A DNA stretch of 56,631 nucleotides, from assembly GCA_003223455.1 (NCBI GenBank), contig QHVE01000022.1:34144-90774 (forward strand). The letters run 5' to 3'. How positions within the stretch are numbered: the first letter of the stretch is position 1; each line of letters starts with the position of its first letter. The stretch comes from Gemmatimonadota bacterium. Lineage in GTDB: Bacteria; Gemmatimonadota; Gemmatimonadetes; Gemmatimonadales; Gemmatimonadaceae. Below the pieces are notes generated by a model. That model ran no database searches. It was given only the letters and a program-made list of their open reading frames with translations, and was not told where the DNA came from. Shown piece by piece: positions 1 to 3,725 of this stretch. Position numbers and translations under genes: made by a program.

Positions 1-594
1 ATCGTCTACTACGGCAACGACTGGGTGTCGCCGGCGACGCGGGTGATCTTCACCCTCGACTACGCGGGACTCGGAGCGAGTGCCGCGCTGCTCGACGGGG
101 GCATGCCGGCGTGGAAGGCGGAGAAGCGAGCGCTCACGACCTCCGCGCCGAAGCCGTCGCGGGGGCACCTGGCGGCGCTGCAGATCAACCCGATCGTCGT
201 CGACGCGGCGTGGGTGAAGAGCCGGCTCGGCAGGCCGAGCTTCCACCTGATCGACGGGCGCGCCGCGGTGTTCTACGACGGCGTGGAGATGGGCGGATCT
301 CGCAAGGGACACATCGTCGGCGCGAAGAGCCTTCCGTACACCGAGATCGCCGACGACAACCTCAAGCTCCGCAGCCCCGCCGAGCTGAGCGCGCTGTTCG
401 CACGTGCCGGCGTGGCGCCTGGCGACACGGTGGTGGCGTACTGCCACATCGGTCAGCAGGCGACGGCGGTGCTGTTTGCCGCGCGGTCGATCGGCCATCC
501 CGTGCTCCTGTACGACGGCTCGTACCAGGACTGGTCGCGTCGTCCGGACTTCCCCGTCGAAGATCCGCGCGCGGGGAAGGCGAGCGCGCAATGA
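1..594 (+). CDS. Thiosulfate sulfurtransferase, tandem rhodanese (5'-truncated by window)
   Basis: The reading frame is open from base 1, so the gene starts left of the window. What remains is the end of a non-catalytic N-terminal rhodanese domain (YYGNDW near the start, then LLDGGMPAWK) followed by a complete catalytic domain carrying the loop YCHIGQQAT, whose Cys would form the persulfide. This arrangement is that of SseA-type thiosulfate or 3-mercaptopyruvate sulfurtransferases, which move sulfane sulfur to a thiol acceptor. No signal peptide can be judged because the N-terminus is missing. Its stop overlaps the start of the next gene (ATGA), so it is the visible head of the sulfur operon. 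Confidence 0.9.
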   Translation: MVYYGNDWVSPATRVIFTLDYAGLGASAALLDGGMPAWKAEKRALTTSAPKPSRGHLAALQINPIVVDAAWVKSRLGRPSFHLIDGRAAVFYDGVEMGGSRKGHIVGAKSLPYTEIADDNLKLRSPAELSALFARAGVAPGDTVVAYCHIGQQATAVLFAARSIGHPVLLYDGSYQDWSRRPDFPVEDPRAGKASAQ

Positions 595-1112
595 ACGCGC
601 GCGCTACGGCCCGGCCGTACGCCGATCCATACCTCGCGGGCGTCGGCCTCGGACTCGTGCTGCTCGCCTCGTTCGTGCTGGCGGGCCGCGGCCTCGGCGC
701 GAGCGGGGCCTTCGCCACGGCGGCAGCGACGTCGGTGAACGCCGTCGCGCCGAGCGCGGTCGCCGGCAATCCATACTTCGCGGATCATCTGGCCGCAGGC
801 GGCCCGCTGCGCGACTGGCTCGTCGTGGAGATCCTCGGCGTGATCGTCGGCGGTTTCCTCTCGGCGTCGCTCGCGGGCCGGCTCGCGTTGCGCGTCGAGC
901 GCGGTGCGCACACCTCCCTGAGGGAGCGGCTGGGTGCGGCGATGGCCGGCGGTGTGCTGATGGGCGGCGGCGCGGTGCTCGCGCGCGGATGCACCAGTGG
1001 CCAGGCGCTCACCGGAGGTGCGCTGCTCAGCGTCGGTGCGTGGCTGTTCATCGGCACCGCGTTCGCGGCGGCGTATCTCGTCGCGTTCGTGACGCGAAGG
1101 AGCTGGACATGA
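591..1112 (+). CDS. YeeE/YedE-family sulfur transporter, first half-size subunit
   Basis: A 173-residue, very hydrophobic membrane protein with the Sulf_transp (PF04143-type) signature: a Gly-rich helix, then ARGCTSGQALTGGA around residue 135. The Cys in that loop is the kind of residue that relays thiosulfate or persulfide sulfur in TsuA/YeeE transporters. Full-length YeeE carries both halves in one chain. Here the halves are separate polypeptides, as in the known paired YeeE/YedE genes. It starts at an ATG overlapping the upstream rhodanese stop and ends in the same way with the next gene, so the operon should be translationally coupled. The two halves presumably assemble into one channel. 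The substrate (thiosulfate or another sulfane sulfur species) is inferred. Confidence 0.85.
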   Translation: MNARATARPYADPYLAGVGLGLVLLASFVLAGRGLGASGAFATAAATSVNAVAPSAVAGNPYFADHLAAGGPLRDWLVVEILGVIVGGFLSASLAGRLALRVERGAHTSLRERLGAAMAGGVLMGGGAVLARGCTSGQALTGGALLSVGAWLFIGTAFAAAYLVAFVTRRSWT

Positions 1113-1714
1113 GCGCGCCGCTGCCCCTGTCGCTGGCGACGGGATCGGCCGGCGCGCTCGCTCTCGCGTTCGGCGTGGGAATCGGCTTCGGCTGGTGCCT
1201 CGAGCGCGCGGGGCTCGGCAGTGCGTCGAAGCTCATGGGCCAGTTCCACCTCACCGACCTGGCCGTGTTCAAGGTGATGTTCTCGGCGATCGTGACGGCG
1301 ATGCTCGGACTGTTCTGGCTGTCGCGCGTCGGCGTGGTCGATCTCTCGCGCGTGTACGTGCCGGAGACGTTCGTCCTGCCACAGCTCGTCGGCGGTCTGG
1401 TGTTCGGTGCGGGGATGGCACTCGCCGGGCTGTGCCCCGGCACGTCGTGCGTGGCGGCGGCGACGGGGCGGGGAGACGGGTTCGTGGTGGTCGGCGGGTT
1501 CTTTGCCGGTGTGCTGATGACGGCGCTCGCGCTTCCGGGGATGGCGCGCTTCTATCAGAGCGGTGCGCGCGGCACTCTGACGCTCGACTCGGTCCTCGGC
1601 CTGGAGACGGGATCGCTGATTCTCGTCGTCGTCGCCGCGGCGCTCGCCGGGTTCATCGTCGCGGAGCAGGTCGAGCAGTGGAAGTTGCGTCGCCTCGCGG
1701 AGCTGGAGCGATGA
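1109..1714 (+). CDS. YeeE/YedE-family sulfur transporter, second half-size subunit
   Basis: A 201-residue integral membrane protein forming the second half of the split YeeE/YedE pair. It has the repeat-related motif GLCPGTSCVAAATG near residue 110, with two Cys, preceded by GFGWCLERAGLGS near the N-terminus, which adds another conserved Cys. Alternating helices and the Gly-rich pore-like loops are typical of PF04143 proteins. The ATG start lies inside the previous gene's stop (ATGA), and its own stop overlaps the next start. With its partner at 591-1112 it should import a sulfur compound that the flanking rhodaneses and the aminotransferase then process. Family is clear and substrate is not. 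Confidence 0.85.
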   Translation: MSAPLPLSLATGSAGALALAFGVGIGFGWCLERAGLGSASKLMGQFHLTDLAVFKVMFSAIVTAMLGLFWLSRVGVVDLSRVYVPETFVLPQLVGGLVFGAGMALAGLCPGTSCVAAATGRGDGFVVVGGFFAGVLMTALALPGMARFYQSGARGTLTLDSVLGLETGSLILVVVAAALAGFIVAEQVEQWKLRRLAELER

Positions 1715-2325
1715 GCACGCGCGTGACCGCACTCCACCGCGCGCTCGCTGCCGCTGCGATTGCGTTGGCGGTTCCCGCCGCGATCGTTCGCGTGCCCGTG
1801 GCTCCGGCACGCGTTGCGCCAGTCGCGATCGGCGACGGCGTACGCGTCGACTCGTTCGTCACGCGCACCGTGGACGCCCGCCAGCTCGCGGCGTGGATCC
1901 GCGCAGGTGCTCGCGATGTCCGCGTGCTCGACTTGCGCGGGAATGCGGCATATCAGGCGCGACACGTGCCTTCGGCCGAGCCGGCCGACCGCGCGCGACT
2001 GGACACGCTGACCCGACGGACGGACGAGACGCTCGTCCTGTACTCGGGCGACGACGTGCGCGACGCGCAGGCGCTGGCCAACCTCGCCGCGCGCGGACAT
2101 CGGCACGCCTACGTTCTGGACGGCGGGATGGACGCCTGGGTGGACGAGGTGATGGAACCCGTGCTTCACGGTGACTCGGCGGACTACGTGGCGGCGCTGA
2201 GCCGATATTTCGGCGGCGCCCCGCGCACGAGCGCGCGCGAGCGAGAGGGGGAGCCGACACCGCCGCGTGTCAAGCCGATAGCGACTACCGGCGAGGCCGG
2301 CGAGACGCCGAGGCGCGGATGCTGA
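1711..2325 (+). CDS. Rhodanese-like exported protein lacking the loop Cys, with a C-terminal Cys
   Basis: A 204-residue protein with an N-terminal hydrophobic stretch (residues 9-30, signal peptide or anchor) and one rhodanese fold: the Asp-Arg pair in VLDLRGNAAYQARHVPSAE, and VLDGGMDAWVDEVM late in the domain. Where catalytic rhodaneses have a Cys the loop reads LYSGDDVRDAQ, with Ser instead. The only Cys in the whole protein is the final residue, after a flexible charged tail ending PRRGC. It is therefore unlikely to be a normal sulfurtransferase, though the tail Cys could carry sulfur (inference). It overlaps both neighbours and lies between the transporter halves and the desulfurase-like gene. 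Confidence 0.85.
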   Translation: MSTRVTALHRALAAAAIALAVPAAIVRVPVAPARVAPVAIGDGVRVDSFVTRTVDARQLAAWIRAGARDVRVLDLRGNAAYQARHVPSAEPADRARLDTLTRRTDETLVLYSGDDVRDAQALANLAARGHRHAYVLDGGMDAWVDEVMEPVLHGDSADYVAALSRYFGGAPRTSAREREGEPTPPRVKPIATTGEAGETPRRGC

Positions 2326-3725
2326 CCCCCACCGCCGCGCCGCGCGCCGAGCGCGCCGTCGACTTCGCCGATCTGCGTGCACGCGAGTTCCGTCGGCTCG
2401 ACGCGGGTGGCCACGCGTATCTGGACTACACGGGGAGCGCGCTCCATCCGGAGCGCCTCGTCACGGAGCATGCAGAGTCGCTGCGCCGCACCGTGCTGGG
2501 GAACCCGCACTCGGAAAGTCCCGCCTCACGCGCGAGCACGGCACTCGTGGAGGCGGCACGCGCGCGCGTGCTGCGCTTCTTCGATGCCGATCCCGGCGAG
2601 TACGTCGCGTGCTTCACCGCGAACACGACCGGGGCGATTCATCTCGTGGCATCCGGGTTCGCGTTCGGACCCGACGCGCCATTCATCCTCGCGACGGACG
2701 ATCACAACTCCGTGAACGGAGTACGCGCCTACGCGGAGCGCGCCGGAGCGCGCGTGCACTACCTTCCGCTCGACGGCGAGCTGCGGCTCGCCGACCCCGC
2801 GTCGCAGCTCGCCGTGTTGCGCCGCACGCACGTCGGAGCGGGGTTGGTCGCGTTCCCCGCGCAGTCGAATTTCTCCGGCGTGCAGCATCCGCTGGCCCTC
2901 GTCGAACGCGCCCGCGCGCTGGGCTACACGGTGCTGCTCGACGCCGCAGCGTTCGTCCCGACGTCGCCGCTCAGTCTTCGGCACGTGCCGGCGGATTTCG
3001 TGGCCTGCTCGTTCTACAAGATGTTCGGCTATCCGACCGGTGTCGGCGCGTTGGTCGCCCGTCGCGAAGCGCTCGCGCGGCTGCGCCGTCCGTGGTTCGC
3101 CGGTGGCACGGTGGAGTACGTGTCCGTGCAGCACGGGTCGCATCTGCTGCGCGAGGGAGCCGAGGGATTCGAGGACGGTACCGTGAGCTTCCTCGACGCC
3201 GACGCCGTGATTCGCGGGCTCGACTTCCTCGACGACGTCGGGATGCAGAGCATCCGCCGGCATGTCCGGTCGCTCGCCGCATCGCTCGTCGAGCGTCTGT
3301 GCGCACTGACGCACCCCGATGGCTCGCCGATGATCCGCGTGTACGGGCCGCGCGACCGATACGACTGCGGCGGCACGGTCACGTTCAACGTGCTCGATGC
3401 GCGCGGCGAGGCGGTGTCGTACGAGCTCGTCGAGGAGCACGCGCGCCTCGCCGGCGTCTCGGTGCGCGGAGGCTGCTTCTGCAATCCGGGCGCATCGGAG
3501 GCGGCGTTCGGCTTCGTCGCCGACCGTGCGCTCGCCTGCATCGCGGAGACGCGACAGGAAGGATGGACGCTCGAGCGCTTCGCGCGCAGGATGCGAGCGT
3601 GCGGAGGCGCGCACGCGATCGGCGCCATTCGGGCGTCAGCCGGAATCGCGTCGAGCGAACAGGATCTCGAAAGGTTGCTCGAGGCGCTCGTCGCGTCGAA
3701 CTGGCATCAGGAACGGAGGGCTTGA
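2319..3725 (+). CDS. Class V aminotransferase, cysteine-desulfurase/MoCo-sulfurase-like
   Basis: A 468-residue PLP-dependent fold type I enzyme. The PLP lysine is K234 in CSFYKMFGYPTGVGA, and a Cys-rich catalytic loop GGCFCNPGASE (C386, C388) is positioned like the substrate-activating Cys loop of cysteine desulfurases and the N-terminal domain of molybdenum-cofactor sulfurases. The C-terminus contains the familiar ASAGIASSEQDLERL helix. The reaction expected is removal of sulfur from cysteine as a protein persulfide. It is the last gene of the sulfur operon and starts inside the rhodanese-like gene (7-bp overlap). Length suits a stand-alone MOCOS-like N-domain. The sulfur acceptor is not known, and the rhodanese-like neighbour is a candidate. 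Confidence 0.85.
   Translation: MLTPTAAPRAERAVDFADLRAREFRRLDAGGHAYLDYTGSALHPERLVTEHAESLRRTVLGNPHSESPASRASTALVEAARARVLRFFDADPGEYVACFTANTTGAIHLVASGFAFGPDAPFILATDDHNSVNGVRAYAERAGARVHYLPLDGELRLADPASQLAVLRRTHVGAGLVAFPAQSNFSGVQHPLALVERARALGYTVLLDAAAFVPTSPLSLRHVPADFVACSFYKMFGYPTGVGALVARREALARLRRPWFAGGTVEYVSVQHGSHLLREGAEGFEDGTVSFLDADAVIRGLDFLDDVGMQSIRRHVRSLAASLVERLCALTHPDGSPMIRVYGPRDRYDCGGTVTFNVLDARGEAVSYELVEEHARLAGVSVRGGCFCNPGASEAAFGFVADRALACIAETRQEGWTLERFARRMRACGGAHAIGAIRASAGIASSEQDLERLLEALVASNWHQERRA

Follow-up and report, generated by a model that had tools for sequence, protein, structure and literature searches.

The window analysed here, a stretch of 56,631 nucleotides from a Gemmatimonadota contig, encodes a rhodanese-like protein that has lost its catalytic cysteine and carries its only thiol at the very end of a C-terminal tail. 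We think it likely that this protein is a dedicated periplasmic, membrane-anchored carrier of sulfane sulfur, whose terminal thiol arm loads the split PmpA-PmpB importer from outside. We also incline, with some reserve, to the broader proposal that it represents an undescribed class of periplasmic carriers, found in at least two phyla and paired either with an exported SseA or with PsrABC, in which a dead rhodanese would provide a docking scaffold and a thiol on the C-terminal arm would supply YeeE/PmpAB as an outer “zeroth cysteine”. The evidence comes from the conservation of the terminal cysteine, the neighboring genes, the charge pattern around the membrane segments and the repeated fusion of the domain to PmpB. 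The features referred to below are collected in Table 1.

Table 1. Features of the operon, in window coordinates.
Feature	Position	Strand	Basis
SseA-like tandem-rhodanese sulfurtransferase, 3' part of gene	1-594	+	Pfam Rhodanese 3e-17; 3-mercaptopyruvate sulfurtransferase model 6.4e-19
PmpA-like half-transporter, C-terminal half of YeeE	591-1112	+	Pfam PF04143 positions 176-309, 2e-19
PmpB-like half-transporter, corresponding to the N-terminal half of YeeE with an added helix	1109-1714	+	Pfam PF04143 positions 5-156, 7.1e-17
Pseudo-rhodanese, putatively exported or membrane-anchored, sole Cys C-terminal	1711-2325	+	Translation, Pfam, model, alignments
Putative N-terminal hydrophobic anchor/signal segment, about residues 10-26, basic residues before	1738-1788	+	Sequence, family-conserved pattern
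Rhodanese-fold domain, residues 58-145	1882-2145	+	Pfam PF00581, model, Foldseek
Ser112 codon, catalytic-Cys position	2044-2046	+	41-sequence count
LSRYFGG family motif, 3' of rhodanese domain	2197-2217	+	Alignments
Flexible linker and basic patch	2218-2319	+	pLDDT, family linker and basic-residue counts
Terminal Cys204 codon (TGC)	2320-2322	+	Translation, family counts
SufS-like PLP cysteine desulfurase, motif GGCFCNPG	2319-3725	+	Pfam Aminotran_5 7.4e-43; SufS-family model 5.7e-41; solved SufS relatives

A rhodanese fold with its only cysteine at the C-terminus

The pseudo-rhodanese gene translates to 204 amino acids that end in ETPRRGC, with LVLYSGDDVR as the loop. A sequence-only reading of this DNA had claimed that the sole cysteine is the final residue of an RRGC end, that serine replaces the cysteine of the catalytic loop, and that a flexible tail leads to the final cysteine. 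Translation of the gene bears out the first two points exactly, since residue 204 is the single cysteine and Ser112 (in LYSGDDVR) stands at the start of the loop, where an active rhodanese has its catalytic cysteine. Both profile and fold place the protein among the rhodaneses: Pfam Rhodanese (PF00581) matches residues 58-145 with an E-value of 8.4e-11, above the curated cut-off, and Foldseek matches the modelled protein to solved rhodaneses. With E-values admitted up to 1, the Pfam scan returned Rhodanese alone, with neither SoxY (PF13501) nor a TusA domain with its N-terminal CPxP cysteine. In an AlphaFold2 model built from six sequences, residues from about 51 to 150 are confident (pLDDT about 90), and residues 170-199 and 202-204 fall below a pLDDT of 50. 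These values agree with the third claim and are consistent with a disordered tail.

The terminal cysteine is conserved across the family

A scan of the genome contigs with the single sequence found no relatives; a profile scan found five loci, including a copy from Acidobacteriota (L058). When a profile of six relatives was run against 395 genomes of Gemmatimonadota, 26 sequences matched strongly, with E-values from 6e-90 to 6e-26, followed after a gap by ordinary rhodaneses near 4e-16. In this set together with L058, each of the 27 sequences whose end could be read has a cysteine among its last three residues and none has a loop cysteine; one possesses an additional cysteine in the anchor. 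When PmpB was used as the query, nine more distant loci were recovered (L124, L125, L127-L133), each with a single reading frame that runs from PmpB through an extra helix to the pseudo-rhodanese. These fused proteins end in KKKKSMGC, RRKAGGC, KKKKAGGC (two loci), KPKKKGGC, KKKEAGGC, KKPKAGGC, KKKGGGC and ISGGCG, and two of them (L127 and L128) have an extra cysteine pair, SCSC, inside the pseudo-rhodanese domain and off the catalytic position. Three further loci that possess PmpAB, from the phylum of L058 (L142, L143 and L146), end in REGC, KEGC and LEGC. Two more loci come from that phylum, the fusion L145/L155 described below and L144/L154. The pseudo-rhodanese of L144/L154 ends in GVGCS; its neighbors are PsrAB-like, cytochrome b and sseA-like genes, and no PmpAB was found there.

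The final set, sampled from Gemmatimonadota and Acidobacteriota, contains 41 sequences, 40 of which adjoin or are fused to PmpB; for several genes the start was set manually. The catalytic position holds serine in 25, aspartate in 8, alanine in 5, glycine in 2 and valine in 1, so that the loop cysteine is uniformly lost (0/41). A cysteine lies within the last three residues of 40 of the 41. Among the PmpB-linked sequences the figure is 39 of 40, the exception being one fusion that has an active sulfurtransferase where the others have the tail. Glycine precedes the terminal cysteine in 34 sequences and basic residues occupy positions -3 to -7 from it in 55-82% of them; many proteins end in GGC and one in GGCGW. 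The tail consensus is thus a basic patch followed by Gly-Cys, after a linker that varies from 19 to 64 residues. Lack of the catalytic cysteine, a variable linker, the basic patch, a Gly-Cys end and a position beside or fused to PmpB together mark these proteins as a new family. Homologues with a varying terminal cysteine or with a loop cysteine, which would contradict the reading of a dead fold with its thiol on the tail, were sought; apart from the one fusion none was found, and at the level of sequence that reading is supported. Conservation of this kind argues that the terminal cysteine matters; it does not speak to its role.

Searches of plasmids found a Gemmatirosa copy and otherwise weak, short matches. 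The operon is borne on the megaplasmid of Gemmatirosa kalamazoonensis KBS708 (NZ_CP007129.1 402746-415162; L161), a named strain whose sequence is complete, in which it can be tested outside metagenomes.

Partner genes in the operon

The operon of the window encodes, in order, an exported SseA-like sulfurtransferase, PmpA, PmpB, the pseudo-rhodanese as the fourth gene, and a SufS-like cysteine desulfurase. The SseA-like protein has an intact catalytic loop, YCHIGQQAT. The 5' part of its gene lies outside the window; the complete proteins, from this contig and from orthologues, carry an N-terminal signal peptide. In the stored contig, the sseA reading frame contains a stretch of N (11 unknown residues) just before the start of the window. 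Genes for a sensor histidine kinase and a response regulator lie directly upstream of sseA on the window's contig (L085 7289-9726), and this pair may control the operon.

The next two genes have the features of a PmpAB-type importer as defined in PMC11582611, namely two half-length PF04143 proteins, one for each half of the profile, with one conserved cysteine each. In PmpA a pore-type cysteine in RGCTSG (codon 990-992) is kept in every locus with a readable PmpA, and in PmpB the cysteine in LCPGT (codon 1433-1435) is conserved across loci. The third YeeE cysteine is absent from many copies of PmpB, and a strict cysteine relay is therefore not universal. PmpA and PmpB, as two half-size YeeE proteins, have been proposed to form one importer (PMC11582611). 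The sequence-only reading had linked RRGC-like tails with YeeE/YedE genes, and indeed PmpA and PmpB precede the gene both here and in almost every relative. At a separate locus the source genome has another two half-size Sulf_transp genes, again as a pair (G000:C86:48362-49410; L158-L160).

The ATG of the desulfurase gene overlaps the stop codon of the pseudo-rhodanese in the seven bases ATGCTGA (2319-2325). The GGCFCNPG motif of this desulfurase is similar to the sequence around the active site in molybdenum-cofactor sulfurases. A search of the source genome for SoxY gave no match, and none was obtained in the control either.

Predicted location of the pseudo-rhodanese domain

Basic residues precede the anchor helix of the pseudo-rhodanese. 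In the fused proteins a stretch rich in lysine and arginine separates PmpB from the extra helix, and the C-terminus of PmpB is basic. According to the positive-inside rule this stretch would be cytoplasmic, so that the extra helix would put the domain outside. Judged by charge pattern and homology, with helices counted by eye, the pseudo-rhodanese is probably an exported protein that works where the importer opens to the outside. YeeE has nine helices, and its partner YeeD attaches on the cytoplasmic side (PMC11073785); placement of the domain outside agrees with this topology if PmpB here has an extra central helix. The AlphaFold2 model of the PmpB fusion at L059 has a mean pLDDT of 63, too weak to inform topology.

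These considerations bear on a different arrangement, in which the domain is cytoplasmic and the arm takes sulfur leaving PmpAB, in place of TusA or YeeD. YeeD plays this part for YeeE (PMC11073785), the next gene of the operon encodes a cytoplasmic desulfurase, and a search of the source genome for the TusA family gave no match, whereas control genomes gave matches. However, the N-terminal charge pattern and the hydrophobic segment point to export, in the fusions the basic end of PmpB, presumably cytoplasmic, is followed by the extra helix, and the partner SseA has a signal peptide. We consider a cytoplasmic arm improbable.

Fusions of the domain to PmpB

The domain is fused to PmpB in 15 loci. 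In the tree, these fusions appear as two well-supported clades, one of five rows (99/98) and one of eight rows (100/99), together with two long branches. Their separation into distinct clades implies that fusion of the domain with PmpB, or the reverse split, took place on at least two occasions. At L145/L155, PmpB, the helix, the pseudo-rhodanese and SseA follow one another in one chain; the terminal cysteine is absent and an active loop, SCRTGHQAS, is present in cis. From this one sequence we infer a natural swap of the arm for an active sulfurtransferase.

If the terminal cysteine were not a carrier, it might sense redox state or sulfur, or form a disulfide tether, and in this way gate or anchor PmpAB. 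A lone, exposed cysteine is able to form mixed disulfides, and fusion to PmpB would suit a gating role. This explanation, however, does not account for the active sulfurtransferase that replaces the tail in L145/L155, nor for the constant pairing of the family with sulfane-sulfur enzymes, and it seems to us unlikely.

Two operon types

Operons of the window's type have the order sseA-pmpA-pmpB-carrier, with the desulfurase gene usually next. In the other type, psrA-psrB-psrC-pmpA-pmpB-carrier, PsrABC-like genes replace those for SseA and the desulfurase. Genes for this polysulfide or thiosulfate reductase lie directly upstream of PmpA-PmpB-pseudo-rhodanese in 16 loci (L074-L078, L083, L124, L125, L128-L132 and L151-L153), from many Gemmatimonadota and from three genomes of the phylum of L058. 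The best solved relative of PsrA is the Thermus enzyme 2vpw (5.3e-216), and PsrB and PsrC match the 4Fe-4S and NrfD families. In the tree, the two operon types split on one branch with modest support (67/89).

The Sud protein of Wolinella is a single-cysteine periplasmic rhodanese. By analogy, in the PsrABC operons the pseudo-rhodanese might bring polysulfide sulfur to PsrA, its bond with PmpAB being secondary. The position of the PsrABC genes in the 16 loci favors this idea, as does the relative at L154, which has PsrAB without PmpAB, and Sud itself (structure 1qxn) is a weak sequence relative. On the other hand, no PsrABC was found in relatives of the window's operon type and the fusion partner is always PmpB; a Sud-like role appears very unlikely.

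The terminal GC-stop ending

The ATGCTGA overlap might in principle have produced the RRGC end, which would then have no meaning at the protein level. This notion can be set aside with near certainty, for although the last codon lies inside the overlap in the window and in several relatives, the cysteine is kept where no desulfurase gene follows (L058, L070, L074-L078, L080 and the PsrABC group), with TGA, TAG or TAA stops, in one AT-rich genome, and in five relatives that have one or two residues after it. A chance origin was also rejected. Among 301 crude long open reading frames taken from the same loci, 28 end with a cysteine at one of the final three positions, and no fewer than 16 of these 28 are themselves family members, compared with 40/41 in the family.

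A proposed model for loading of the importer from outside

In the carrier model that we favor, the N-terminal helix, or the extra helix after PmpB in the fusions, would tether the dead rhodanese domain at the outer face of the membrane, where the domain would serve as a docking scaffold for the sulfur donor or for the transporter. The arm would consist of the linker of 19-64 residues, then the basic patch and then Gly-Cys. Its terminal thiol would receive sulfane sulfur. In operons of the window's type the donor would be the active cysteine of the exported SseA-like protein, and in the PsrABC operons it would be the polysulfide that this reductase handles. The sulfur on Cys204 would be offered to the outer pore cysteine of PmpA (RGCTSG) and then to the PmpB cysteine (LCPGT), and PmpB would pass it to a cytoplasmic acceptor. 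In the operon of the window this acceptor may be the cysteine desulfurase, which is a candidate for the role because no TusA-family protein was matched in the genome. A single cysteine of YeeD, which partners YeeE on the inner side, has been described as a “fourth cysteine” at the exit (PMC11073785); by the same count, the cysteine of the arm would be the one before the first.

We infer the periplasmic location, persulfide formation, the direction of transfer and the contact with PmpA. The carrier model draws support from the conserved terminal cysteine and the uniform loss of the loop cysteine, the constant PmpA-PmpB-pseudo-rhodanese order, the repeated fusion to PmpB, the active cysteine supplied in cis in the one exception, the sulfane-sulfur partner proteins, the conserved pore-type cysteines of PmpA and PmpB, the modelled disorder of the tail and the charge pattern. 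The relative at L144/L154, with PsrAB-like and cytochrome b genes but without PmpAB, count against a role with the importer, and in PsrABC operons the arm could serve PsrA instead.

For the entry of protein-bound periplasmic sulfur into YeeE-family importers, published work offers proposals only (PMC11582611). The family links a candidate carrier to the transporter through gene order and repeated fusion, and it offers one residue to mutate. It would also be an instance of a fold that keeps its place in a pathway after loss of the catalytic residue, with the chemistry moved to the tail.

Comparison with known systems

The rhodanese fold, the YeeE halves, SseA and PsrABC are all of known kinds. 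A search of open-licence papers yielded no description of a terminal-Cys pseudo-rhodanese; an account elsewhere is possible. The family shares its fold with GlpE-type single-domain catalytic rhodaneses, but where the latter have the catalytic cysteine, all 41 sequences have S, D, A, G or V. Sud of Wolinella succinogenes, a periplasmic rhodanese-fold carrier tied to polysulfide reductase, uses its loop cysteine. In our family, whose export is predicted, that cysteine is always absent and the thiol is on the tail.

Two other carriers place a cysteine on a C-terminal arm. SoxY of SoxYZ is a periplasmic sulfur carrier with its cysteine on a GGCGG arm. The GC, GGC or GGCGW ends of the family are similar, by analogy only, since SoxY has another fold and the window protein is a rhodanese, putatively membrane-anchored. 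DsrC also carries sulfur on the cysteine of a flexible C-terminal arm, but its fold is unrelated and it is cytoplasmic.

With regard to the transporter, the window resembles the PmpA/PmpB systems of Serratia and Hyphomicrobium, and SoxT, in having two half-size YeeE proteins; the available part of the account of these systems does not mention a terminal-Cys pseudo-rhodanese partner, and for the transfer of SoxYZ-bound sulfur to SoxT it presents proposals only (PMC11582611). Among the more distant DUF6691-like PmpB loci that were checked, a terminal-Cys pseudo-rhodanese was absent. An exported three-rhodanese protein has been described in a Psr operon (PMC12142623). A further parallel is YeeD/TsuB with YeeE/TsuA, in which a small, single-cysteine, sulfur-binding protein works with an importer of the YeeE family and can form one protein with it (PMC11073785). 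Unlike the proposed carrier, YeeD has the TusA fold, is cytoplasmic, acts at the exit and has its cysteine (C17) near the N-terminus.
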